This document shows positions 1,780 through 30,236 of a stretch of 30,255 nucleotides of DNA, in pieces. The DNA lies in IMG/VR virus record IMGVR_UViG_3300044637_000133, positions 1-30,255 of that record, one strand, 5' to 3'. This stretch comes from a virus. The notes under the pieces are model-generated. The model saw nothing but the letters and a program-made list of their open reading frames with translations, ran no database searches and was not told where the DNA came from. The position numbers and the translations under genes are program-made. Position 1 is the stretch's first letter. Every line of letters begins with the position of its first letter.

Positions 1780-3666
1780 TTACAATGTTGCATTTTCTAC
1801 TCGGTTTCTATCTAAGCTCTGAGCAGTTGTTACTTGACCGGAAACTACGTATGCTTGTACTGGTGTTTGCTGAAGTTGTGCCAACTGATTTACACCTGAG
1901 TTTCCTACTACGTTGAATGATGGTGCTTGTGTTGGTATTGAACCTGTGCTTGGAGGTGTACTTGTGTCAGGTGTGCCACCCTCAAATTGTTGTTGAGATA
2001 TTTTAGCTACGTTAGCCAAACCAGATGCTACTGCAATACCTGCTGCAATACCACCTCGAATTGGTGAGTCAGGAGTTGGTACAGGAGTAAACTGAGAAGC
2101 GTAAGCACTTGTAGCATTTTGATAAGTTGTAATTAACGCAGTCGCTATGTTTGCAGCCTTTTGAACTTGGAAAGCTCTCTTTGCTGCTTTCTCTGACTTC
2201 TTACCGAATAACTCGCTTATTGAAGCGATAGCAGAAAGACCATCTAATGTGGCTTTGAATTTAAATGATTGAGATTGCTCTTCAATTTGTCTTGCTCGTG
2301 TTGCAGTTGCTTCAAGCATTTTTATTTCTAAATCTGCTGCTTCTTGCTTTGCTTGTAGTTCGGTATTTAAAGAACCTTGAAGTGTGCCTAAATCTCTTTG
2401 GTTAATTCTAAACTTCTCAATAGAAAGAGTATCAATTTTGCCCATTGATTTGTCCAAAGCATCGTCTAACTCTTCAGCTTGTGCTTTTTCTAAATCAGCA
2501 GTATCTTGTTTGTACTTTTTAGCAAGTGCTATTTGTTGAGCATATTTTTCTTGGATATCTCTTACTTGCTTTTCGTATTCAGACTTGAATAAGTCAGTTG
2601 CTTCTCTATTGTATTGTTTAAGTTGAGCAAGCTCTTCATTTCGTTTATCCTTAGCTGCTTTAGCTCTATTTATTGAATCTTGTCTTTGTTGCTCTGCTTG
2701 TGCTTTATTTTCCTCTTCTTGTTCTTTTTGAGCTTGCTTTTGTTGCTGACGCATTTCATATTCGTCATTCTTTAACTTAGCAAGTTGTTGACGTAATTCT
2801 GATACGTGTATGCGTTGTGCTTTTGCAGTCTCTTCGTCTCCGTAGAATAAGCGACCAGTAGCATTAAGACCTAATTTGTCAAATATCTTTACATTCTCTA
2901 AATCTTTCTTTTGGCTTTGATATAACTTTTGAGCGGCAGCAAGTTCTTGTTGGCTTTTTTGGATTGCCTCTTTAAATCTTTTCTTTCGTTTTTCAGCAAT
3001 ATCCTCTTCAGTATAACCTAAACGCTTTAATGTTCTTTCATACTCATCAAAATTGGCCAATGCAGCACGAGCAGCATCAGCACTCTCAGCAGTTGATTGA
3101 GCAAACTTTTGAGCTTGTGCAGTCGCAGGAGTTAACGCTGCTTTAACGTCATCCCATTTAGCTATAAGTAAACCTAATGCAGCAATTACTAAACCGATAC
3201 CTGATGCAAGGAAAACTTTAGATGCAGTAGTCATACCAGCAAAAGCATTCTTAACAACTGCACCCAACTGAACAAAGCTATCTTTAGCTTCCATTGCTCC
3301 TTGAATACCTTGAGACAATGCCATCGCTGACTGAACTTTAAGGAGTGTTTTTTGTAGTGCTTCACTCTCAGTACCTACCAATCCCATTGCACCCTCAAAT
3401 GCTTGGAATCCGTTTAATGCTCCACCTATTGATTGAGATAGTGCGTTAAACTTAGCGTCAGGGTTAAAGGCATCAGTTAAACTCTTAGCATCGCCAATTC
3501 TATCTTTTAATTCAGCGGCTTTTTTCGCAGCCTCTGCTGCTTGTTGAGATGTTGCACCAAACTTCTCTGATAATGAAGCAACCTCAGCTTGTGCTTCTCT
3601 TAACTGGCTTTTTAACGAACCAATGTTTGTTTTTACTTCTAAGTCTATTACTTTAGTTTCTGCCAT
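1780..3666 (-). CDS. Tail tape measure protein
   Basis: The 628-residue protein has a helical N-terminus rich in alanine, lysine and glutamate, one or two hydrophobic segments at about residues 150-172 (FLASGIGLVIAALGLLIAKW), a long charged coiled coil (about 200-480) and a glycine-alanine C-terminal stretch (GGIAAGIAVASGLANVAKIS) typical of tape measure proteins of Bacteroidota phages. Tape measures set tail length and are delivered with the DNA at infection. By the usual rule of about 0.15 nm per residue it implies a tail near 90-100 nm, so a siphovirus. It follows the two large tail proteins and a 50-residue gene that it overlaps by 14 bases. Confidence 0.88.
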   Translation of the reverse strand: MAETKVIDLEVKTNIGSLKSQLREAQAEVASLSEKFGATSQQAAEAAKKAAELKDRIGDAKSLTDAFNPDAKFNALSQSIGGALNGFQAFEGAMGLVGTESEALQKTLLKVQSAMALSQGIQGAMEAKDSFVQLGAVVKNAFAGMTTASKVFLASGIGLVIAALGLLIAKWDDVKAALTPATAQAQKFAQSTAESADAARAALANFDEYERTLKRLGYTEEDIAEKRKKRFKEAIQKSQQELAAAQKLYQSQKKDLENVKIFDKLGLNATGRLFYGDEETAKAQRIHVSELRQQLAKLKNDEYEMRQQQKQAQKEQEEENKAQAEQQRQDSINRAKAAKDKRNEELAQLKQYNREATDLFKSEYEKQVRDIQEKYAQQIALAKKYKQDTADLEKAQAEELDDALDKSMGKIDTLSIEKFRINQRDLGTLQGSLNTELQAKQEAADLEIKMLEATATRARQIEEQSQSFKFKATLDGLSAIASISELFGKKSEKAAKRAFQVQKAANIATALITTYQNATSAYASQFTPVPTPDSPIRGGIAAGIAVASGLANVAKISQQQFEGGTPDTSTPPSTGSIPTQAPSFNVVGNSGVNQLAQLQQTPVQAYVVSGQVTTAQSLDRNRVENATL

Positions 3667-6204: not shown

Positions 6205-7244
6205 TAGATTACGGAGTTAATTACATCGTAAGCGTATTCAAATTCAAGTTGGTAGTTAATCATAGGAGTATTGATAGACTTGAATAGCTCCATAGATTTC
6301 GTGTTTAGTTTGGCAGCAGTCTCGTTGACTAAGATTCTTTCGCTTAGCATAATTTGCTTGATGGTCTCTTTGAAGCTCTCGTCAACCCAATCAGAGTTCA
6401 CTCGGATGCCTTGCTTTCCGTTAGCGTTAAATACTTGTCTTTGCCCCTCAGTAGGTAGGTAGTTAGGGAACTGAGATTGCATTACATTGTACTCCGTGTT
6501 TTCGGTGTTTAAGGTATCGTAAGAAGCAGTAAAGAAATACTCACGTTGCCACGCTCCAAACTTGTTAACAAAGTCAACTTGAACCGGAACGTATCTGCAC
6601 TCCTCTTGTGGGTAAAAGTAAGAAGTCCACATCACCCCGTTTGACGAATCCAAAAGCTCAAGTTTGTTTCCTACTGATTCCCAACCTGAATACACTCGGC
6701 TGATGTCTCTTACCGTGTTTAAAGATAGGTTGATAGTTTGCGTTGAGTTGGTGCTTAGGTTTGTCCATTTGGCTTTTGCTATCGTACCCGTTATTGCGGT
6801 AACCCAACCAACGTTATTGATAGGATTGTAATAGTAACTGCCTTGACCTAATAGCACATCGGTAAATGTAGGATTGTAGCCATCCGTGTAATAGCCGAAT
6901 CCCTCAAATCCGTAGCCTGTAATATCAGAACCAACTTGAGTGAACGCAGTACCCACTCTTTTGTATTTACGGATTGTGAAATTGCAATACTGAGCAGTTG
7001 GTGTAGCTGCCTGAGTAGTCATTTGCGTTTGTAAGCTATTATGAGAAATGAACTCACGAACGTACGGACTCACATCGTAATAAGTAGCAGGAGCATTTGT
7101 AGCAGGTATGAGCTTACTTAGAATGTACTGAGGTGCACTTGGCATTGAACCAGTATTCCAAAGGTAAATTTCTATCTTAGTTTCTACTTGTCCTGTTTCG
7201 TTTATTGTTACGATGTATGGACTTCTTGCAAATATGTTAGGCAT
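6204..7244 (-). CDS. Tail structural protein (distal-tail type)
   Basis: The 346-residue protein opens MPNIFARSPYIVTINETG and is rich in aromatic residues and beta strands. It has a YFYPQEECRYVPVQVDFVNK segment near residue 210 and ends in a helical stretch (about 285-346). It lies between the gp10-like gene (8-base overlap) and the 800-residue tail gene (1-base overlap), the place of distal tail proteins in siphoviruses. The start at 7244 fits the small overlap with the upstream gene. The exact role is inferred from context. Confidence 0.65.
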   Translation of the reverse strand: MPNIFARSPYIVTINETGQVETKIEIYLWNTGSMPSAPQYILSKLIPATNAPATYYDVSPYVREFISHNSLQTQMTTQAATPTAQYCNFTIRKYKRVGTAFTQVGSDITGYGFEGFGYYTDGYNPTFTDVLLGQGSYYYNPINNVGWVTAITGTIAKAKWTNLSTNSTQTINLSLNTVRDISRVYSGWESVGNKLELLDSSNGVMWTSYFYPQEECRYVPVQVDFVNKFGAWQREYFFTASYDTLNTENTEYNVMQSQFPNYLPTEGQRQVFNANGKQGIRVNSDWVDESFKETIKQIMLSERILVNETAAKLNTKSMELFKSINTPMINYQLEFEYAYDVINSVI

Positions 7245-7764
7245 TTTGTTTTAGTATTTGGTCTATTTGTTCGTTAAATAATTTTATCGCATCTAATCCG
7301 TATTTCTCTACCAAGTCTTCAGGTAGTCTCTTGTAAGCATTTTCAAATGGCTTGGTGAAAAACAAACTTCTTTCAATGCCTTTATTAAATATACTTCTTG
7401 CAATTGCAAATTTTATTCCCGTTCTTTTTACGAATTTACCTCCTGAATCTCTTGGGGACAATCCTTTTCTCCTAATCCAAACATCCAAAGACTTGAGCAT
7501 CTTCTTACTTGGTACTCCTTTCTTGAAACTATACTTAGAACCTTGATTATTTTTTAGTCCATTGACACCCTCATCTTGAAAAACTCCGTAGTCTTCCATA
7601 GAAAACTCAATCGAAATAGAATTAGGCATAGCCTTTACATTACCTTTAAGCGATTTATAGAGCTTACCATCGGCTTTTTTTAATCGTTTAAGGTTTGCCT
7701 TAGATACATCAATTACGTAGTCTCTAAAGCGTTCTAATTCCTTTTGAACTTCGTCTTTTTGCAT
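7237..7764 (-). CDS. HK97 gp10-like neck or tail-completion protein
   Basis: The 175-residue basic protein has a helical start (VQKELERFRDYVIDVSKANL), the phrase SISIEFSMEDYGVFQDEGVN and a C-terminal FFTKPFENAYKRLPEDLV. The layout of YGVFQDEGVNG followed by later FTKPF resembles the gp10-like family, in which a Y..F.e.G stretch precedes a P-F motif. Such proteins act at the head-tail joint or tail completion. It starts on the last base of the preceding tail terminator-like gene. Confidence 0.65.
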   Translation of the reverse strand: MQKDEVQKELERFRDYVIDVSKANLKRLKKADGKLYKSLKGNVKAMPNSISIEFSMEDYGVFQDEGVNGLKNNQGSKYSFKKGVPSKKMLKSLDVWIRRKGLSPRDSGGKFVKRTGIKFAIARSIFNKGIERSLFFTKPFENAYKRLPEDLVEKYGLDAIKLFNEQIDQILKQNA

Positions 7765-8219
7765 TAGCAGATTGTAACCTCGTTAGGAATGAGTACATCA
7801 AAGGTCATAGTCCAACCGGCTAAGTAGTTCTCGAAACGCTCAGTAAATGGCTCACAAGTAGGATTCCCGTCAACAACGTACTTGGCATCCCACAAATTAC
7901 CGTGAAGCATAAGTGCATACGCTCGGTTTAAGACTTCTAATTGAGTGTTGAGTACGTCTTGTTCGTTTGAGTTACCTCTGAACACGTCAGTAGTTGCTTT
8001 CTTGCTGATGTCAACTATGTCCATTGCTATCAATGAAATGTTAAAGCGTACTACATTGGTTTCAAAAGTGGCGTTGTTTACCATCAAGTGTACAAGTGGG
8101 AAGATAGTCTGCTTATTTAAATCCACCTCGAAGATATCGCCCTCAGTAATTGTGTTGACTATTGGGTCAGCAGTAAAGTGATTGCGTAATGCAGTTGTTA
8201 TATCGTAAAATCCTTTCAT
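7764..8219 (-). CDS. Tail terminator-like protein
   Basis: The 151-residue product opens MKGFYDITTALRNHFTAD and contains GDIFEVDLNKQTIFPLVHLM, NISLIAMDIVDISK, NEQDVLNTQLEVLNRAY and FENYLAGWTMTFDVLIPN. This arrangement is familiar from conserved proteins of flavobacterial phages and fits the alpha-beta fold of tail terminators, which cap the tail tube and fix its length. The ATG at 8219 overlaps the stop of the -1 frame of the tail chaperone gene (TGA at 8216-8218), an ATGA coupling that also supports that frame. Confidence 0.65.
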   Translation of the reverse strand: MKGFYDITTALRNHFTADPIVNTITEGDIFEVDLNKQTIFPLVHLMVNNATFETNVVRFNISLIAMDIVDISKKATTDVFRGNSNEQDVLNTQLEVLNRAYALMLHGNLWDAKYVVDGNPTCEPFTERFENYLAGWTMTFDVLIPNEVTIC

Positions 8220-8979
8220 CGTTTTAGTTGTCTTTCAAGTTGTCGGTGTTCAATTTCGTTTTTTTGCTTCTCGAATGTGAGATAGGTGAGACATTTAGTA
8301 AGTCGGTATTTCGTAACTTCGTCAAACTTTGTGATGTCTCCTTTAGCGAGTCCATAAATACTTTGATACCATCCCCATTGTTTTGCAAACTGAGTCGTTT
8401 CGCTAAAGTCGTTCTCATATCCTGACTCTTCTGAATCTCCGTCTCCAAATAACTCAGGGTAGCCTGCAATAATTCGTTTCCTAAACTCCAAAAAAAAAGC
8501 GATGCTGAAATGCAAACATCCAACGGAGCGAACTTCATCAGCTCTTGCATATCTTGGTTAGGATTGTACTCTTGAATTTCGTACTTGTCTTTGATTCGTG
8601 TTTTGATAGGTCGGTAAAGAACTGCCATTGCCTTATGGTAAGTATCCCAACTTTGCAAGTAATTCTCCAAGTCCACATACTCACCGAAAGTAATCTCTTC
8701 AAGATTCGGAATAAAACCGAACTCAATATCTCCTATTGTAAATTTATTAGTGAACTTAGTCTTAGAACCAAACAACTCGGTAAAATGAGTTATAAGTTGA
8801 TTTAATGACTTCAACTTAATCTTGGCAACTTCACTTAGATTTATTCCGCAGAATATCTCTACCATTTTTTGAGCGATAAACTCCTCATCATTGCTATTAC
8901 CTTGAACTTTTAAAAAGTCCTGATAATGCTTTAACGGGATTTCATTTAACTCAGTAGGAACTTTGATTTGTACTTCCAT
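8216..8979 (-). CDS. Tail assembly chaperone fusion made by -1 frameshift (GT-like)
   Basis: This is the predicted 254-residue product when the ribosome slips back one base on T9 (8490-8498): residues 1-163 come from the upstream frame and 91 residues from the -1 frame. After the slip it reads LEFRKRIIAGYPELFGDGD and later AKQWGWYQSIYGLAKGDI followed by TKFDEVTKYRLTKCLTYLTF, a pattern I associate with tail chaperones of Bacteroidota phages. The -1 frame has no ATG of its own (only a TTG at 8515), is open to 8216, and its stop overlaps the next gene's ATG. In lambda the analogous GT product bridges the tape measure and tube subunits. An alternative is a real or erroneous one-base indel in the homopolymer. 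Confidence 0.75.
8224..8979 (-). CDS. Tail assembly chaperone, unshifted product (G-like)
   Basis: The unshifted frame encodes 251 residues starting MEVQIKVPTELNEIPLKHYQ. The first 160 residues include FGEYVDLENYLQSWDTYHKA and HKAMAVLYRPIKTRIKDKYE, phrases that recur in proteins placed before tape measures in Bacteroidota phages. After the T9 run the frame stays open for a further 88 residues (SLGNELLQATLSYLE, then NNGDGIKVFMDSLKE), overlapping the -1 frame throughout. The two products would share residues 1-163. Whether the unshifted tail has a function of its own, or is only left open, cannot be told from sequence. Confidence 0.7.
   Translation of the reverse strand: MEVQIKVPTELNEIPLKHYQDFLKVQGNSNDEEFIAQKMVEIFCGINLSEVAKIKLKSLNQLITHFTELFGSKTKFTNKFTIGDIEFGFIPNLEEITFGEYVDLENYLQSWDTYHKAMAVLYRPIKTRIKDKYEIQEYNPNQDMQELMKFAPLDVCISASLFFWSLGNELLQATLSYLETEIQKSQDMRTTLAKRLSLQNNGDGIKVFMDSLKETSQSLTKLRNTDLLNVSPISHSRSKKTKLNTDNLKDN
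8490..8498 (-). promoter_or_regulatory. Slippery site for -1 frameshifting (T9)
   Basis: On the coding strand nine T follow a C; in the upstream frame they are read ctt ttt ttt tgg. This contains T TTT TTT in the correct X XXY YYZ register, the strongest type of -1 slippery heptamer, and moving back one base gives ttt ttg gag. Slippage by the polymerase on T9 is an alternative to ribosomal slippage. I did not identify a clear stimulatory stem just downstream. Confidence 0.75.
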
Positions 8980-8984
8980 ATTTA

Positions 8985-9167
8985 TTAGACGTTTGTTTCT
9001 TGTTTTTGTAGCACGTATGAGTAAGCTGCTGCCAACATTTGAGTATGGCGTCTGACGTTAAACATATCGTTGAATATTATCCTGACCTTTTTGCCAGTTG
9101 TATCTTGGATGTATTGCTCTACTACCCTCACCATTTTAGGTAGCTCATCGGATGTTGTATTGTGCAT
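8985..9167 (-). CDS. Small protein after the terminase, unknown
   Basis: The 60-residue product reads MHNTTSDELPKMVRVVEQYI to AAAYSYVLQKQETNV. It is probably helical and soluble. It overlaps the end of the terminase gene by 23 bases and ends 5 bases before the tail chaperone gene, so it belongs to the late operon. No family is recognised. Gene-like composition and tight packing support it being real. Confidence 0.6.
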   Translation of the reverse strand: MHNTTSDELPKMVRVVEQYIQDTTGKKVRIIFNDMFNVRRHTQMLAAAYSYVLQKQETNV

Positions 9168-10305
9168 AGTTTGATTTTAAACCGAGTGCTTCCATCTCGT
9201 GATAACGAAGTGCGTCAATGGCGTGATTAAAGTGGTCGATAGGTTTGTTCATTCTGACTCCTTGCTTATCTACATCCCAACAATATGACCTCAGCTCTTT
9301 GATTAGGTTTGTACTTGATTTGGTAACTAAGTAATCTTGCCTTTGCATTACGTCTATCCCGTAGTTGATAGAGTCCTTTCCTTTTGTTACTCCTTTAATC
9401 GTCTTTCCGTAGCGTCTAATCTCTTCGATTGATTTCGGCTCTGAACTATCAGCGTAAATGATAACGCCTGACGGAAGTATCTTGGCGATGTCTGAGTTGA
9501 CCATTCCTGTACGGTAAGCAATTTCGTTTACTATTCGTTTTCCGTTATAATTGTAGATTTCTATTGCAGCAGTAGGGTCATTCGTGTAACCGAAGTCAAG
9601 CCCTATGCCTACCAACTTTGCTTCGCTTGGGATTGTATCTATCTCTTTCCAATTATTAAACACCACACCCTCAAGACTACCTACCTCACCGAGTCCGTAC
9701 ACCCTCCACCAATTTGACCAATAAGAGCTCGTAGCTGCTTTGTCACGGTTCTTTTCTATTTGGCTTACTATTGATTCGTCTAATGCTTCGTTATCCTTGT
9801 AGGTTAATATAATAAAGTCCGTGTCAGGTTCGTCTTTTAGTTCCTTGTGTACCCAAAACTCATTCGCAGGATTAAAGTCTAAGAACACCTCTCGCTTGGT
9901 GCGGATAGCAAGTTCGTTGTAAGCCTCGAATGTTACGTTGTTGCACTCATTGATGTATAGGATATCACGCCTTGCACCTCGTAGTTTAGAGGCGTCATCT
10001 GCCGAAAAGAATTCTATGGATGAGCCATTAGCGAAATCGTACCTGAGTAGAGTCTTGTTGAATCTATCGTCAAAGTAACGATTAGTCCAACGCATTATTT
10101 TGAGGAAGTCTTTGAGTGCTCCTCTTCGCAAGTGAGGAATAGTCTCAGCTACTACTGAAACTTCTAAGCCTTTTTCTTTAGTGCATTTGTCTATCAAGAT
10201 TGGGAGTATGCCAAATGTCTTACCTGCTGACGTACCCCCTTGAATAATCTTGATTCGTTTTTTTAGAGCAAGGATTTTATTTATCGAGGTAGTTCTTTTG
10301 AACAT
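9145..10305 (-). CDS. terL: Terminase large subunit
   Basis: The 386-residue protein is the DNA-packaging motor and headful or end-cutting nuclease. The ATPase domain has Walker A GGTSAGKT (23-30) and a Walker B strand DILYINE (114-120), where asparagine precedes the catalytic glutamate. The RNase H-like nuclease domain has GLDFGYTNDPTA (D237), YADSSEP (D286) and DHFNHAIDALRY (D357, D364). The length is slightly short for the family (often 400-450) but all motifs are present. It starts inside the small-subunit gene with a 29-base overlap. Confidence 0.95.
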   Translation of the reverse strand: MFKRTTSINKILALKKRIKIIQGGTSAGKTFGILPILIDKCTKEKGLEVSVVAETIPHLRRGALKDFLKIMRWTNRYFDDRFNKTLLRYDFANGSSIEFFSADDASKLRGARRDILYINECNNVTFEAYNELAIRTKREVFLDFNPANEFWVHKELKDEPDTDFIILTYKDNEALDESIVSQIEKNRDKAATSSYWSNWWRVYGLGEVGSLEGVVFNNWKEIDTIPSEAKLVGIGLDFGYTNDPTAAIEIYNYNGKRIVNEIAYRTGMVNSDIAKILPSGVIIYADSSEPKSIEEIRRYGKTIKGVTKGKDSINYGIDVMQRQDYLVTKSSTNLIKELRSYCWDVDKQGVRMNKPIDHFNHAIDALRYHEMEALGLKSNYAQYNIR

Positions 10306-10735
10306 CTGCGTCTATTGCTTTTGTTTCGTCAGGGAATAATGGCATCTCCATCGTGACAGTCGTTTCAGTCTTCTCAGTTAGTCCGTTTAAACGTGCAGTT
10401 AAGTTAGCATTGTACTGACCAACTAACCCTCCGTTGATTTGGTCTGAGCGGATTTCTCGCTTTATGTATGTAGAGACGGAGCAAAAATCTTGGTAAGCAT
10501 CGTTTGTATTCTTGATGTAATGCTCAATCCAAAGGTCGTGCTTTTCAAATGCCCATACTTCAAATCCCTCCATTGACAAGGGAACTTCAAGAGGTTCTGC
10601 TACCATATCACCGGTACGTTGATTCAAGGTGTACTTGTAGCGAGGATTGTCTTTAACCCATACCTTGTACTTTCTGAATAGGTCTAATAGAGTTTCAGGA
10701 CTATCTATCTTTCTTGGTCTTCCTACTTTTGCCAT
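10277..10735 (-). CDS. terS: Terminase small subunit
   Basis: The 152-residue product opens MAKVGRPRKIDSPETLLDLF and contains PLSMEGFEVWAFEK and IKREIRSDQINGGLVGQYN, features of the DNA-packaging small subunit of many Bacteroidota phages. It recognises phage DNA and loads the large subunit. The GRPRK start resembles an AT-hook-like basic tail. It lies immediately before the large subunit, and its start overlaps the 59-residue gene upstream. Confidence 0.85.
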   Translation of the reverse strand: MAKVGRPRKIDSPETLLDLFRKYKVWVKDNPRYKYTLNQRTGDMVAEPLEVPLSMEGFEVWAFEKHDLWIEHYIKNTNDAYQDFCSVSTYIKREIRSDQINGGLVGQYNANLTARLNGLTEKTETTVTMEMPLFPDETKAIDADVQKNYLDK

Positions 10736-10880
10736 TTTCTAATTCGTGTTTTTGTAGTTGTTCTCTGCAAATTGTGTATCGTTGGTCTTGGTCATACTCT
10801 CTGACCATAGTGTCATCCATCATACATCGTTGAATGAACTCTCCTTGTTGCTCTTTAGGTAGTGGCTTCGGAATAGGCAT
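10701..10880 (-). CDS. 59-residue protein with QRCM...EYDQDQRYTIC motif
   Basis: From the ATG at 10880 this frame encodes MPIPKPLPKEQQGEFIQRCM, then MDDTMVREYDQDQRYTICRE and a basic C-terminus. The pattern of RCM, then a MV.EY.D.DQRY.IC stretch, is well known in small phage proteins and at the N-termini of some prohead proteases and head proteins; the two cysteines may bind metal. It overlaps the gene before it by 26 bases and terminase small subunit by 35 bases. Confidence 0.7.
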   Translation of the reverse strand: MPIPKPLPKEQQGEFIQRCMMDDTMVREYDQDQRYTICREQLQKHELENGKSRKTKKDR

Positions 10881-11238
10881 TGTACACTCTTTTAAGTTGG
10901 TTTACAATATCTCTAAAGCAAGAAGAGCAGTTGCTTGGTTCTAATCTTACTTTCATTACTCTTGAGTATATCTCTCTTACTCTTGTTACTTCACTTGGTT
11001 TGAATGTTTGTTGTTCAAGGATTCGTGTTTCCGTAAGCCAGTTGTATTCCTCTTCAGTTAAGCACTCAGGTTGACGATATGGAAACCACTCGTTAAGTTT
11101 CTTTTTACGCTCATTACATCCGCAGTCTTCTCCTGCTACAAACTCAACTAACTTTTTGATGCCTGTGATTTCAGTTATCTGCTCTATGGTATCTCCTAAG
11201 CCTTGAGCTTTCTTTCTTGGTGTTCGTGTTTTTGCCAT
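10855..11238 (-). CDS. Conserved cysteine-containing phage protein
   Basis: The 127-residue product opens MAKTRTPRKKAQGLGDTIEQ and continues with ITGIKKLVEFVAGEDCGCNE; near the C-terminus is NCSSC. The CGC and CSSC pairs could bind zinc. Proteins with the GLGDTIE...GIKKLVEFVAGEDCGC pattern sit next to terminase genes in several Bacteroidota phages, as I recall, with unknown function. It begins 5 bases after the sigma-like gene and so shares its promoter. Confidence 0.65.
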   Translation of the reverse strand: MAKTRTPRKKAQGLGDTIEQITEITGIKKLVEFVAGEDCGCNERKKKLNEWFPYRQPECLTEEEYNWLTETRILEQQTFKPSEVTRVREIYSRVMKVRLEPSNCSSCFRDIVNQLKRVYNAYSEATT

Positions 11239-19947: not shown

Positions 19948-20004
19948 CAAAAGGTTGCAAATTTTTTAAATTTTTTTTTGAGGTATGTATAAAAAGATGG
20001 AAAA

Positions 20005-25327: not shown

Positions 25328-25828
25328 CTAAATATACCAGCCAGTGTAGTTGTTTTGAGTATCAGGGTACATATCCCCGTTAGTATTAGTAGTGTACTCA
25401 GGGAATAAATCGTTGTTAAACACGATGTAATCAATGAATCTCTCGGTGTAGTGCTGAGCGATTTGACGTTCTTTTTCGATTAAGAAGTCAACTTCGTTTT
25501 TTTCTACGTTTTCAGAGTTCTCAGATGAGTGCTTATAAACTCCTTTGTTTGCGATTGTGTATGCAGCGAAAGGTAAGTATTCAACCATTGCCCAGTGTAT
25601 GAGCATTGGCTTAACGTAGGTCTCAGTAAGCAACTCATAGTTACCGGTAAGAGTACCTGCTAAGATTTCAGTTTGAATCTTTTGAAGCAATCTTGTGCCT
25701 AAGTAGTTTTGAATGTGTATGTCTTGAGCGATTTTGATAAACTGAATAAATTTGTCAGTATCTACGTTACCATTTACCGCAGTAAATCGAACTAAATCGT
25801 CTCTTGTTATGAGTAGTGCAGTTGCCAT
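25328..25828 (-). CDS. Head-tail connector-like protein
   Basis: The 166-residue product opens MATALLITRDDLVRFTAVNG and is mainly helical with IQNYLGTRLLQKIQTEILAG and MLIHWAMVEYLPFAAYTIAN. This resembles the DUF6712-type protein that follows portal genes in Bacteroidota phages and is thought to act as a gp6-like connector between portal and tail. The start overlaps the portal stop by one base. The C-terminus is tyrosine- and asparagine-rich. Confidence 0.7.
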   Translation of the reverse strand: MATALLITRDDLVRFTAVNGNVDTDKFIQFIKIAQDIHIQNYLGTRLLQKIQTEILAGTLTGNYELLTETYVKPMLIHWAMVEYLPFAAYTIANKGVYKHSSENSENVEKNEVDFLIEKERQIAQHYTERFIDYIVFNNDLFPEYTTNTNGDMYPDTQNNYTGWYI

Positions 25829-27618
25829 TATTTATCTCCGTAAATTGGGTTAGTAGGTAAAAAGCCATTGTAAGGCATATCAACAGGTCTCACAAATACT
25901 TCTTGTGGATTTCTAACACGATAACCTGCCTTTTCCGCTTTGTTAGTGCTGATAGTTTTAGCGTTTGGATTGGTAGGGTCAATTCCCATACCCTCCTCAA
26001 ATGATACATAAGTTCTACGCAACCATTTGTGATGGCAGTTACCTCCACCTTTGTATTTAAAAATGTCGTATGTAGCAGCTCCGTTAGCACCCCATCCTGC
26101 ATTTACAGGTTGATTGCTCATTCTAACGATGTCTTCTTTACGGTAAACCTTATTTGCAACAGTCATCTTCTTGCAGAACTCACGAGATTTAGCAGACGTT
26201 TCACCTGAATAAACGTATCGAGTGATGAATTGAAATCCGTCAATAACTTTGTCTTGCTCTGATTTTGCTTTAGGATTTGCAGTTCCTGTACTTACAAAGT
26301 TGTAAACTTTAGATAAAAGAGATTGCTTAGGTTTATTTGCCATTTCAATTTCAGCGTCTATTGCATCCTCTTGCTCAAGGTCAACCTCAAACTCGTCAAT
26401 CAATATCCACTTGTCATCAGGCATCTCTCCGCACTCAATGAGTGCATCTGCAATCTCGTTATCTAAGTGATTGTGTTTGCTTAGTTCAGTTCCTGTTTCC
26501 TCAGCTACTTGCTCTTGGTTTTGAGCGTTTTCTAAATCGGTAAATTCAAGAGGTTTAAGCGTCTTAAAGAATAAGTTGAGGGATATTCCGTTATAAGCTA
26601 AGATAGTGTCTAAGGCCTCAAGTATTTCATCCTGAAGCGGTTTAATCACCATATTGTTAAATAATATAAACGAGTTTTGCAATTCATCAGCGTTAGACGA
26701 GAACCCGTTAGCACCTGCAATCCCAAATAATAAAGGTGAAGTTACATTGTGACCGAGCATAATCTTACGCATACACTCCTCAGATAAGTAAGTGTAGTGC
26801 TCAGGAGCGTCATTCAAAGGCAAATCATCTACCGTAGTTTTAGTGTCCATATTGTCGTTGAACGCTACGATTACTTTCTGACCTTTCGAACCAGTTAGTT
26901 TGCTTAGAACCTTGTTTGTGATGATTGATTGCTGCTCGTCAGTAGGCACTCCGTTGTTGAAGTTAACTACTTTAGTTCCTGAGAATCCGTTTTGTACTTC
27001 GTTGATTAGGTAATCAGCTATCTCCTCCTCCAAAAGTGCGTAAGGAACTGCACCTTGATAATCAGGATAAGCGTAATATTTCATTCCTACTGCATAAGGC
27101 TTAGAGAATAGAATCTCAACCTTGTCTTTAGAGTATCCAAATGCAGGTATGCGAGTAGGCGGGTATTTTTTTACATCAGTCCAATCATCTGAATAGTAGT
27201 AGGCTTCTATTTCTCCGTCTTTATTGCACTTCTCAGCACGTAAAAGGTTAACAGGAATGTGATACGCCTTGAGGATTCTATCGTGCTTGTCGTTGTAATG
27301 TACTTGGATAGAGAACTGGCCAAGCATCTTTCTATCAAGAGCAATCTTACGCAAACAATCCTTGTTAAACATAGCCATAGCTTGAGCGTACTCATTTGGC
27401 TTACGTGAAGCATCTACTGCACTTAACCCACGCCCATAAACTAAGCGAGAAATGTTGTTAATGATTGCGTTGTTTGTAGTGGAGTTGGTGTATCTTTCTT
27501 GTAGGAAGTGATAGTAGTTGTTATCTTCTCCAAAGTCAACCCAAGCATCACGCTTACTCTCCTGAATAACGGGAGTAGTGTATGCAGATAGGTTTAAGAC
27601 GTGTACGTTGTTACTCAT
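25828..27618 (-). CDS. Portal protein with C-terminal MuF-like domain
   Basis: The 596-residue product is a portal in its first 430 residues: SRLVYGRGLSAVDASRK, MLGQFSIQVHYNDKHDRILK, LSEECMRKIMLGHNVTSPL, and a helical stem with IKPLQDEILEALDTILAYNG. Portals form the 12-fold DNA gate. Residues about 455-596 (RYVYSGETSAKSREFCKKMT, later YKGGGNCHHKWLRRTYV) match the minor head (MuF-like) domain, with the usual S.R.FC and gG.C.H.W marks. In many phages this is a separate gene; here it is fused. It overlaps the preceding gene by 8 bases. Confidence 0.82.
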   Translation of the reverse strand: MSNNVHVLNLSAYTTPVIQESKRDAWVDFGEDNNYYHFLQERYTNSTTNNAIINNISRLVYGRGLSAVDASRKPNEYAQAMAMFNKDCLRKIALDRKMLGQFSIQVHYNDKHDRILKAYHIPVNLLRAEKCNKDGEIEAYYYSDDWTDVKKYPPTRIPAFGYSKDKVEILFSKPYAVGMKYYAYPDYQGAVPYALLEEEIADYLINEVQNGFSGTKVVNFNNGVPTDEQQSIITNKVLSKLTGSKGQKVIVAFNDNMDTKTTVDDLPLNDAPEHYTYLSEECMRKIMLGHNVTSPLLFGIAGANGFSSNADELQNSFILFNNMVIKPLQDEILEALDTILAYNGISLNLFFKTLKPLEFTDLENAQNQEQVAEETGTELSKHNHLDNEIADALIECGEMPDDKWILIDEFEVDLEQEDAIDAEIEMANKPKQSLLSKVYNFVSTGTANPKAKSEQDKVIDGFQFITRYVYSGETSAKSREFCKKMTVANKVYRKEDIVRMSNQPVNAGWGANGAATYDIFKYKGGGNCHHKWLRRTYVSFEEGMGIDPTNPNAKTISTNKAEKAGYRVRNPQEVFVRPVDMPYNGFLPTNPIYGDK

Positions 27619-27940
27619 AAACTATGAACGTATTTGATGTAGTGTTAGATGTGTATTGTCCGTTGTTTACGGAGAATGTTACGATATTTTGGTCAGTACA
27701 AAAGATTCTATCCTTGTAAACGATGTCCGTGTTTTTGTAAAGAACTAAATCGTAGAAGTGACCCTCAGTTAAGTCAAAAGTTGCGGTGATTGTATTGACG
27801 TAATCTCCGCTCGTTTGAGTTGTGATAGCTACCGTTACTGGCGTGTTTGTTTGGTCATCAGTAAGTACCATTGAAGTAGCAGTATCTCTCGGAATGAAAG
27901 AGAACGTCTGAGCTGAACTTGATGTAGTTAGTACAATCAT
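27611..27940 (-). CDS. Beta-rich structural protein, unknown
   Basis: The 109-residue product opens MIVLTTSSSAQTFSFIPRDT and is dominated by beta strands and threonine, like an immunoglobulin-like virion decoration or adaptor domain (GHFYDLVLYKNTDIVYKDRI near the C-terminus). It lies between the putative tail tube gene, with a terminator in the gap, and the portal gene, which it overlaps by 8 bases. Structural role inferred from context. Confidence 0.6.
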   Translation of the reverse strand: MIVLTTSSSAQTFSFIPRDTATSMVLTDDQTNTPVTVAITTQTSGDYVNTITATFDLTEGHFYDLVLYKNTDIVYKDRIFCTDQNIVTFSVNNGQYTSNTTSNTFIVYE

Positions 27941-27977
27941 ATTTAAAAGACGTAAACACGGAGGAATTGTTTTAAAA

Positions 27978-28003
27978 GCAAAAAGGGAGACCTAAGCCTC
28001 CCT
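27978..28003 (-). terminator. Terminator after the putative tail tube gene
   Basis: On the minus strand AGGGAG (28003-27998) pairs with CTCCCT (27989-27984) across an 8-base loop, followed by TTTT and an interrupted T run. It lies about 25 bases after the gene stop and is probably a partial terminator that lowers expression of the portal operon relative to the tube protein. Confidence 0.75.
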
Positions 28004-28027
28004 CCTTACACGCTATAAAGAAAAGTG

Positions 28028-28588
28028 TTATGCAGTTACGATAGCAGCAGTACCGAATACATCACCTGCACCACCTGCTAAGTCTGCTTCAGATGAGCAG
28101 TCAAGTAGATTGGCGAGCAATTTTTCATTCCCTACGAAAGTCAAAGTGTAACCGTTTAAATCTCCCATTGCAGTACCGTTAGATACGTTTGCAGTAGTTA
28201 ACTCCATTCCGTGCTCCAATCCTGCTAAGAAAAATTGGTTGTTACGTGTTTTAACAACTACGTTAGGGCGGCCATAAGCCAACAATTTAACGCTTTTGTG
28301 TGTAGTAGCGTTTTGAGTCTTTAACGTCATTGTCAAAGTTTGCTCTACGAATGTAGTTCCGTTCTCACGTGAAGAGTTTACAACTTGCTCAAAAGAGTTA
28401 GTTCCTTTGAGTTCGTATTTGTAAAGCGAAGTTACGTTAGCTACTGCATCGATGGTATCAGTACCTGTTACATAAGTAACGTCAGTAGGGTAAGCGTAAT
28501 CTCCGTAGTTAATGAAGTAAACTGCATCGATACCACCTACGGCATCTTTACATACTTCTAAGCGACCATTTGCTAAATCACAAGCCAT
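28028..28588 (-). CDS. Probable major tail (tube) protein
   Basis: The 186-residue product opens MACDLANGRLEVCKDAVGGI and has a beta-sandwich pattern with FVEQTLTMTLKTQNATTHKS, KLLAYGRPNVVVKTRNNQFF and a FLAGLEHGMELTTANVSNGT strand. The type, with mid-chain TFVEQ.L.. and a glycine- and alanine-rich end, resembles tube proteins of Bacteroidota phages. It is flanked by terminators on both sides, as expected for an abundant structural protein. A capsid decoration protein is an alternative. Confidence 0.65.
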   Translation of the reverse strand: MACDLANGRLEVCKDAVGGIDAVYFINYGDYAYPTDVTYVTGTDTIDAVANVTSLYKYELKGTNSFEQVVNSSRENGTTFVEQTLTMTLKTQNATTHKSVKLLAYGRPNVVVKTRNNQFFLAGLEHGMELTTANVSNGTAMGDLNGYTLTFVGNEKLLANLLDCSSEADLAGGAGDVFGTAAIVTA

Positions 28589-28610
28589 TTTATTAAGTTT
28601 TAAAAGTTAT

Positions 28611-28638
28611 AAAAAAGGGAGGAGCGAAAACCCCTCCC
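28611..28638 (-). terminator. Terminator after the major capsid gene
   Basis: On the minus strand GGGAGG (28638-28633) pairs with CCTCCC (28622-28617) across a 10-base loop, followed by TTTTTTA. It sits 24 bases past the capsid stop. Partial read-through would let the tube gene still be expressed from the capsid transcript. Confidence 0.85.
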
Positions 28639-28661
28639 CGATTATTTAAATTGAGCTAAGA

Positions 28662-29612
28662 TTAGTTAGCAGAGTTTGTGATTCCGTAAGTAACAACGTC
28701 AGAAGCAAAACCGTATTTAGCGTCAGCAGTAAATCGCATAACTACACGTACGTTTTGTGAACCATCGATATCACCCATATCCAATACTTTAACTTCGTTC
28801 ATATCAGAAAGAAGACCAGTTGCAAAGTAAAGGTTAGATTTTTGGCTCAATAAAGCTGTGTTAGCAGCAAGACCGTTAGCCATAAATACACGAACACCGT
28901 CAAAGTAAACATCACCAAGTTGTTGGTTTGTACCTTTGTTGTCGTAACCGTTAGCACCTACACCTGAAGCAGCGAAGCCACCCAAAGCACGTACATAAGC
29001 ACGGTAGATGTTAGAAGATACATAAAGAGTCAAGTCTTCTTTTCCGTAAAGAGCAGCTGGACAAGCATCAACGATTTTACCAAGTTCTGTGATTACGTTA
29101 GCAGCAGTAACAGTAGTACCTGCAACTTCGTTAGCAGATGGCAAAGAAGCATCAGTAGTCAATTGTGTCATAATACCTGCGAACTCGCCAGCAGTATTGT
29201 TAACACCTTGCCAAATTGAAGTTTCCATACCAGCAGCAACTTTCTCAGCAGCGTGTGCGATTAAGAAGTCAGCGAAAGACTTAGGAAGTACGTCAAATGC
29301 AGAGTAACCCATTTGGATAGCATCCCAATCTGAACGGAAGTCAGTTTTACAAAGTTGTAAGTTAACTTGGAAAGATTCAGGTTGAAGAATTTTCTCAGTC
29401 AAAGTGATAGTTGACGTAGGGTCAAAGTCGCAAGTAGCGTTTTTGATGATTCCGTCAGTAGCAACTCTTTTGATAACTTGTTTGTACTTAACGTTAGGCA
29501 TAATTGTGATACCGCCTTTGTCAAGGGTTGGAGCAGACAATAAAGCTGCAGCGATGTACTTGCCAGCAAAATCTCCAGCATAAGTTGTAGTAATCGAGGT
29601 CGTAGTGGCCAT
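28662..29612 (-). CDS. Major capsid protein
   Basis: The 316-residue product opens MATTTSITTTYAGDFAGKYI and has the composition of HK97-fold capsid proteins of Bacteroidota phages: an N-arm, then TITLTEKILQPESFQVNLQL, a spine-helix region (FDVLPKSFADFLIAHAAEKV), an A-domain with CPAALYGKEDLTLYVSSNIY, and a C-terminal FTADAKYGFASDVVTYG. It follows the scaffold gene and is followed by a strong terminator, as usual for the most abundant late protein. The codons look optimised and it lacks the AAACACG motif found elsewhere. Confidence 0.85.
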   Translation of the reverse strand: MATTTSITTTYAGDFAGKYIAAALLSAPTLDKGGITIMPNVKYKQVIKRVATDGIIKNATCDFDPTSTITLTEKILQPESFQVNLQLCKTDFRSDWDAIQMGYSAFDVLPKSFADFLIAHAAEKVAAGMETSIWQGVNNTAGEFAGIMTQLTTDASLPSANEVAGTTVTAANVITELGKIVDACPAALYGKEDLTLYVSSNIYRAYVRALGGFAASGVGANGYDNKGTNQQLGDVYFDGVRVFMANGLAANTALLSQKSNLYFATGLLSDMNEVKVLDMGDIDGSQNVRVVMRFTADAKYGFASDVVTYGITNSAN

Positions 29613-29639
29613 TTAATTGATTATTAGTTAGTTAGTAAT

Positions 29640-30236
29640 TTATTTAATATTTGCGATACGGCTAAGAACAGTATCCATAGTGCTTGCGTTTCTTTTAGCA
29701 GCAAACTTGAATACATCAGTAGGTTGTGCGTTTTCAGGATTGAAAGAAATAGGCTTAGGCTCTTCGCTCAATTCAACTGGTGCAACTTCTTCTGCAACTT
29801 CAGTAGTTTGTGCTGAAAGTTTCGCTTTCAATTCCTCATTTTCTTTTTTAAGAGCTTCGATTTCACTAAAGAAAGATTCTTTAACGATAGACTCAATAAC
29901 TTTTTTTGCTTGTGGAGCAGTCTCGGTAGCAGCTTCAACTTCCTCTTCTACTTCAGGAGCTTCTACTTCAACTTCTACTTCAGGTTCAGCAGCTTCACGA
30001 ACGTCAGCGATAACACCCTCTTCGATAACTACAAGGATACGCATATCCTCAAGCTCATACTCTCCAATTGGAAGTGGGATGCGTTGTTCGTCTTCAGTTA
30101 AGATAAATACAGGTTGACCTGCTTCAAAAGCATCAGCTTCGAGCATAGATACGCCATCAGATAGACGCATAGTTTCCAACTTCACTTCTAAACCTAAAAG
30201 TGTGCGGACTTTGTTTAAGATTGATTTTTCGTTCAT
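29640..30236 (-). CDS. Capsid scaffold protein
   Basis: The 198-residue acidic protein opens MNEKSILNKVRTLLGLEVKL. Residues about 25-80 form a beta-like domain (AFEAGQPVFILTEDEQRIPL); then comes a very acidic stretch of alternating glutamate and valine (about 85-108) and a coiled coil (SEIEALKKENEELKAKLSAQ, about 124-143). The C-terminal helix is basic (DVFKFAAKRNASTMDTVL). Acidic, coiled-coil scaffolds immediately before the major capsid gene guide prohead assembly and are removed or cleaved by the protease. The first part is duplicated at 1-112 by the terminal repeat. Confidence 0.8.
   Translation of the reverse strand: MNEKSILNKVRTLLGLEVKLETMRLSDGVSMLEADAFEAGQPVFILTEDEQRIPLPIGEYELEDMRILVVIEEGVIADVREAAEPEVEVEVEAPEVEEEVEAATETAPQAKKVIESIVKESFFSEIEALKKENEELKAKLSAQTTEVAEEVAPVELSEEPKPISFNPENAQPTDVFKFAAKRNASTMDTVLSRIANIK

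Follow-up and report, generated by a model that had tools for sequence, protein, structure and literature searches.

Frameshifted tail chaperones are textbook knowledge, and in phage lambda the unshifted G protein ends just past the slip. The -1 shift in such genes has been established for lambda, P2, HK97 and others (PMC5009743; PMC5313236), and in P2 a ribosomal -1 shift on TTTTTTG was found to proceed without stimulators or RNA structure (PMC3091744). Transcriptional slippage at A9 or T9 is likewise established in bacteria (PMC1088944). Genes of the latter kind (Thermus dnaX with A9, Shigella mxiE/spa13, IS elements, tssM) possess an A/T homopolymer of at least 9 and have two protein ends and no ribosomal stimulators; none of them is a phage tail gene. 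Another related case is potyvirus P3N-PIPO, where a long overlapping and conserved frame is entered by slippage inside another gene.

The window, i.e., the whole stretch of DNA that was analysed, is a viral contig of 30,255 bases, with the gene of interest on the minus strand. The frame-0 ORF (8224..8979, 251 aa) consists of a common N-terminal part of 163 residues and an unshifted tail of 88 codons (8227..8490), and its stop codon TAA is located at 8226-8224. A run of nine T's at 8490..8498, with the codon phase CTT TTT TTT TGG, is the putative recoding site; it includes the in-register heptamer T TTT TTT at 8497-8491 (minus strand). The -1 frame tail (8216..8491, 91 codons, LEFRKR...WGWYQSIYGLAKGD...), with which the unshifted tail is doubly coded, has no ATG of its own, its first start codon being TTG at 8515, and the shift is its sole access. 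Reading of frame 0 up to T9 and then of the -1 frame gives a fusion of 254 residues. The stop codon of the -1 frame (TGA, 8218-8216) overlaps as ATGA the start codon (ATG at 8219) of the next gene on the same strand (7764..8219, 151 aa, phrog_30964), which is a relative of gene 42 of phage P12024L. Over about 265-270 nt both tails are open. The initial annotation had described overlapping frames of 251 and 254 residues meeting at T9, an overlap of about 270 bases with both frames open, a slippery heptamer in the correct register, the ATGA junction and the missing ATG, and all of these are present on the minus strand. As computed from the sequence, an mRNA with U10 would encode exactly the 254-residue fusion, and mRNAs with U8 or U11 would encode products of 165-166 residues.

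The arrangement resembles lambda gpG/gpGT, HK97 and P2 E/E+E' in its single start, its -1 slip run, its location in a tail or morphogenesis operon, a common N-terminal domain, a C-terminal domain which is present only in the minor product, and the dispensability of RNA structure. It differs from these systems by the lack of detectable sequence homology, by its position beside the terminase gene, by the 88 residues which follow the slip in the unshifted frame, and by a run of nine T's where the others have a heptamer (e.g., TTTTTTG or AAAAAAC). With the transcriptional-slippage genes it has in common the homopolymer, the two protein ends and the lack of ribosomal stimulators, although slippage is here only a candidate. 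In contrast to P3N-PIPO, where an RNA virus polymerase is involved and pipo is a short accessory frame, both frames here form the end of the same gene. A search of the open-licence literature found no description of a tail gene with T9, of a tail assembly chaperone that uses slippage, or of a gene of this type in which a long unshifted tail is maintained.

A true homologue was detected in the Nonlabens phages P12024S (genes 38-39) and P12024L (genes 40-41; phrog_32199, phrog_38404), where it is also placed after TerL. These are the only cultured relatives found; at about 27% identity they possess T9 in identical codon phase and a homologous -1 tail, whereas their unshifted tail is only 25 residues long. 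Because of these relatives the host would appear to be a member of the Bacteroidota. In the public records of P12024L/S (L082 9001-9695; L083 3001-3695) the fusion was missed and two hypothetical proteins are listed in each case (AFM54760.1/AFM54761.1 and AFM54699.1/AFM54700.1), which illustrates that gene finders now split or truncate this gene.

A first scan of viral contigs yielded 435 relatives, of which 80 were kept; barring contigs which ended early or were locally broken, these contained T9 in the same phase and both open frames. Two more scans, which were seeded with distant members, raised the number of complete loci to 227, of which 199 are distinct, with identities of about 27-100%. 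Among the distinct loci the run consisted of nine T's in 189 and ten T's in 10, and in none of seven or eight; the -1 tail comprised 81-94 codons in all complete loci. A less biased sample was obtained with a DNA pattern for HKAMAVxYRP, a motif about 140 bases upstream of the run, so that the run itself was not a criterion. All 114 distinct loci (some of whose contigs overlap the first set) contained an in-register run, T9 in 112 and T10 in two. The few exceptions are single contigs: in L164 a T10 fuses the frames into one of 254 codons, in L202 the -1 frame is broken after 12 codons, and in L038 and L147 a stop is present upstream, in the common part. These could be either mutants or assembly errors. 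A scan of GTDB contigs revealed no copies of the gene in host genomes.

Flavobacterium phage 6H was considered as an intermediate and was rejected, since the similarity was weak and confined to the fold, and since reading on in the -1 frame from its T TTT TTC leads to a stop. In this phage (L241 10048-10351, minus strand) an unannotated gap beyond a 191-aa gene (10352-10927) contains about 90 open codons in another frame which resemble the shifted tail domain; as the in-register T TTT TTC meets a stop at once, another access route would be needed.

In the near clade the unshifted tail comprises 78-101 codons; far-clade members have 47-67, and P12024 has the above-mentioned 25. When the -1 protein was kept fixed and synonymous codons were redrawn according to usage (1000 draws per representative), frame 0 remained open for 6-25 codons on average, compared to 87-101 observed in near-clade representatives; the observed open length was reached in 0/1000 draws in 11/11 of them, and the same test gave p values of 0-0.04 for far-clade representatives. 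Shuffling of the tail's own codons resulted in p values of 0.004-0.05 (near clade) and 0.002-0.125 (far clade). Third-position diversity of the -1 frame was 0.253 in the overlap, versus 0.492 in the common part and 0.516 in the next gene, and changes which are synonymous in the -1 frame occurred in the overlap at about half the rate of the common-part control. Those creating a stop in frame 0 amounted to 0 versus 0.62 (transversions, control), where the absence of frame-0 stops is partly built in, the loci having been grouped by tail length, with almost none lost thereby. Reduced synonymous change and two frames held open, which characterise overlapping genes, were thus both found.

With respect to amino acids the two frames behaved differently. 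In an overlap analysis of dN/dS in the style of OLGenie, the -1 frame gave a value of 0.62 (0.48-0.80), and for frame 0 NN/SN was about 1.0 (0.81-1.27) in the near clade and 1.25 in the far clade, SS sites being too few; this counts against strong amino-acid selection on most of the unshifted tail. Overall, radical frame-0 changes were about as frequent as conservative ones; in the first 30 frame-0 codons they were rarer (0.086 versus 0.163 for transitions; for transversions 0.017), but the intervals are wide. The initial annotation had suggested that the unshifted tail may be functional and under dual coding constraint, and had proposed a search for purifying selection in each frame. By dN/dS such selection was evident in the -1 frame and not in frame 0 as a whole; the suggestion holds in that the tail is kept open and synonymous change is reduced, and on the amino-acid level for the first 30 or so codons, not for the tail as a whole. 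At the level of sequence comparison, dual coding of the locus is well established, with T9 conserved, both frames open and constraint on both. The -1 tail would appear to be the more constrained of the two proteins, while the unshifted tail may be required to exist, its first part as a sequence and the remainder mainly as a length.

Predicted models, each based on its own alignment, cover the two tails. For the -1 tail a helical domain was predicted (pLDDT 80). According to AlphaFold, the last helix of the common domain (153-184) crosses the slip site into the unshifted tail, whose final 50 or so residues are of low confidence; this picture agrees with a first part constrained in sequence and a remainder constrained in length. 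Beyond the first 30 or so codons the unshifted tail is kept open and is probably disordered. Sequence and fold searches of the PDB gave no informative match and no similar solved structure. The PHROGs specific to the gene correspond, over their entire length, to the P12024 proteins. Many uncharacterised phage relatives are contained in BFVD, with a single match named tail assembly chaperone, which is insignificant (E 0.5).

The genes in the neighbourhood, in order of transcription, are the terminase large subunit (9145..10305, minus strand; phrog_2, E 5e-38), an ORF of 60 aa, the T9 gene, the gene for the 151-aa protein, a neck/tail-completion-like gene (7237..7764, minus strand, 175 aa; phrog_29822), the P12024L homologue of which matches phrog_5 "tail completion or Neck1" (E 4e-4), two large genes, a small ORF and the tape measure gene (1780..3666, minus strand, 628 aa; phrog_1538 and others, E 7e-8). 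Thus the T9 gene follows closely after the terminase, in the same module, and is five genes upstream of the tape measure. Genes for tail assembly chaperones are usually situated between those for the major tail protein and the tape measure, and their unshifted product ends soon after the slip; the T9 gene has a different position (the major tail protein is not certain here), and its unshifted frame continues for 88 codons (47-101 in relatives; 25 in P12024). Since these two usual features are missing, membership in the G/GT chaperones is not claimed. Another feature, an in-register -1 site which would give a fusion, is present in the sequence, and the -1 tail is conserved in complete relatives. 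An XkdF-like protease is encoded at 1175-1759, and scaffold, capsid and portal genes are found at 25828-30236, at the opposite end of the contig. In its layout the contig resembles a nearly complete, circularly permuted genome, in which the terminase, neck and tail genes are ahead of the protease and the capsid.

We consider it rather probable (about 0.75) that the gene gives rise to two proteins from one start, with a maintained unshifted tail and, by analogy, a chaperone role similar to that of lambda G/GT. From one start two main proteins with 163 N-terminal residues in common would be made; most molecules would stay in frame 0 and yield the 251-aa form with its tail of 88 residues, and a fraction would change frame at T9 and yield the 254-aa form with a helical tail of 91 residues. 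The pair would act as a tail assembly chaperone, the slip setting the ratio of the two forms. The beginning of the unshifted tail would extend the last helix of the common domain, and the remainder would be a stop-free tail. On this reading, hundreds of phages use the same bases to encode two complete alternative ends, and the maintenance of such a long dual-coded stretch in a phage morphogenesis operon raises the question of the role of the tail of the abundant form.

Several other explanations bear on this reading. That the homopolymer reflects a sequencing or assembly error, the true gene having a single frame, is extremely improbable: the frame-fusing T10 of L164 would fit, but this contig stands alone, and the two-frame arrangement is maintained in the 199 distinct complete relatives, including two cultured phages, together with third-position suppression. 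The single frame which reads with T8 or T10 were expected to reveal, if the initial proposal was wrong, was seen only in L164. The unshifted tail could also be devoid of function as a protein and be free of stops for the sake of translational coupling, where unshifted ribosomes terminate directly ahead of the following gene and start again on it. Of 126 near-clade loci, 91 do have the frame-0 stop 4 nt ahead of the following ATG, and amino-acid constraint is weak past about 30 codons, so that open frame 0 may in addition feed the next gene there. In most far-clade loci, however, 58-93 nt separate the stop from the following start, and yet 47-67 codons are open; coupling can thus not be the general reason for the open frame, and as the whole reason it was rejected for this clade. 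The general halving of -1-synonymous change moreover exceeds what stop avoidance alone would produce, and we regard a functionless tail as improbable, although it might apply to the near clade. A similarly low probability is assigned to the view that the product is a structural or neck protein in two forms. It would agree with the location soon after the terminase and before neck/completion-like genes, away from the tape measure, and with the lack of a Pfam chaperone family match. Against it, no other chaperone candidate is present ahead of the tape measure, and weak PHROG matches were obtained, in 6/29 members, to phrog_166 "tail protein" only. To our knowledge, the frameshift pairs of siphovirus morphogenesis modules were chaperones in all cases studied. 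A tail assembly chaperone functioning like lambda G/GT is therefore our best inference; of the "tail chaperone frameshift" initially proposed, the programmed shift joining the frames at T9 is borne out by the conservation, and the name chaperone rests on analogy.

The agent of the shift may be RNA polymerase, the ribosome or both. Addition of one U by the polymerase is slightly favoured, with about an even chance of being correct; a purely ribosomal -1 shift on U UUU UUU, as in lambda and P2, with the two extra T's being held by the encoded amino acids, is a somewhat weaker but serious candidate, and a joint action of both is rather unlikely. For the ribosome one could cite the in-register heptamer in every relative, but any T9 holds an in-register T7 by arithmetic, and the heptamer thus does not discriminate. 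The Phe codons inside the run are always TTT, though TTC makes up one third of Phe elsewhere, and stimulator-free -1 slippage is established in tail genes (PMC3091744; PMC5009743). The heptamer would, however, need just seven T's, and yet no relative has seven or eight; at least nine are kept even after a phase shift and a change of the flanks from V/L-FF-W/Y to S-FF-L. The codon phase of the run changed about 10 times on the tree, and its length was never below nine. Four losses of an upstream T (three on supported branches) are each paired with an extra downstream T, only 3-4 of these compensations being independent (sign test, p 0.25). Since T's 8 and 9 are nonsynonymous in both frames, protein constraint may hold the extra T's.

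Avoidance of runs was determined in comparison to synonymous shuffles, with 989 ORFs (1.16 Mb) which the same contigs contain besides the T9 gene. The ratios of observed to expected T runs were 0.59 for T7, 0.36 for T8 and 0.05 for T9 (1 versus 20.3), and A9 was found at 0.17 of expectation (7 versus 40). In many bacterial genomes, too, avoidance becomes apparent at a length of nine, and transcriptional slippage makes use of runs of this length (PMC1088944); an A/T run at or above this slippage threshold (about 9), as is characteristic of transcriptional realignment, was present in 199/199 and 114/114 loci. The avoidance of T9 elsewhere may also stem from replication slippage. No downstream RNA structure was detected just 3' of the run (mean fold z -0.35 to -0.51), and no Shine-Dalgarno-like stimulator is present at the site; ribosomes of Bacteroidia do not recognise such sequences (PMC9976891). 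The third frame is shut within four codons in 190/199 relatives, which would be convenient if polymerase slippage yields all three frames; in about half of the cases, synonymous redraws alone are enough to shut it within six codons. The strict rule of at least nine T's mildly favours the polymerase, whose slippage appears at least as likely as a ribosomal shift. If the rule does reflect polymerase slippage, the product ratio of a phage tail gene would here be set in transcription. The full version, in which slippage of the host RNA polymerase on T9, and not the ribosome, determines the ratio of a tail-assembly pair, with three products (251, 254 and roughly 165 residues) and two functional tails on the same 270 bases across a large lineage of Bacteroidota phages, is put forward tentatively, with somewhat less than an even chance.

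Other runs of this length were noted. In the window itself, the plus strand has a second nine-base T run at 19971-19979, where there is no clear gene. T9 or T10 in the sense strand of long ORFs elsewhere in these phages was found in just three ORFs of relatives, which could possibly be further slippage sites or errors; one of them (476 codons, MVALYIYVDGIAKRIELFDDEKISLTSSVQ...) resembles part of the 800-aa protein encoded at 6204-3802 of the window.
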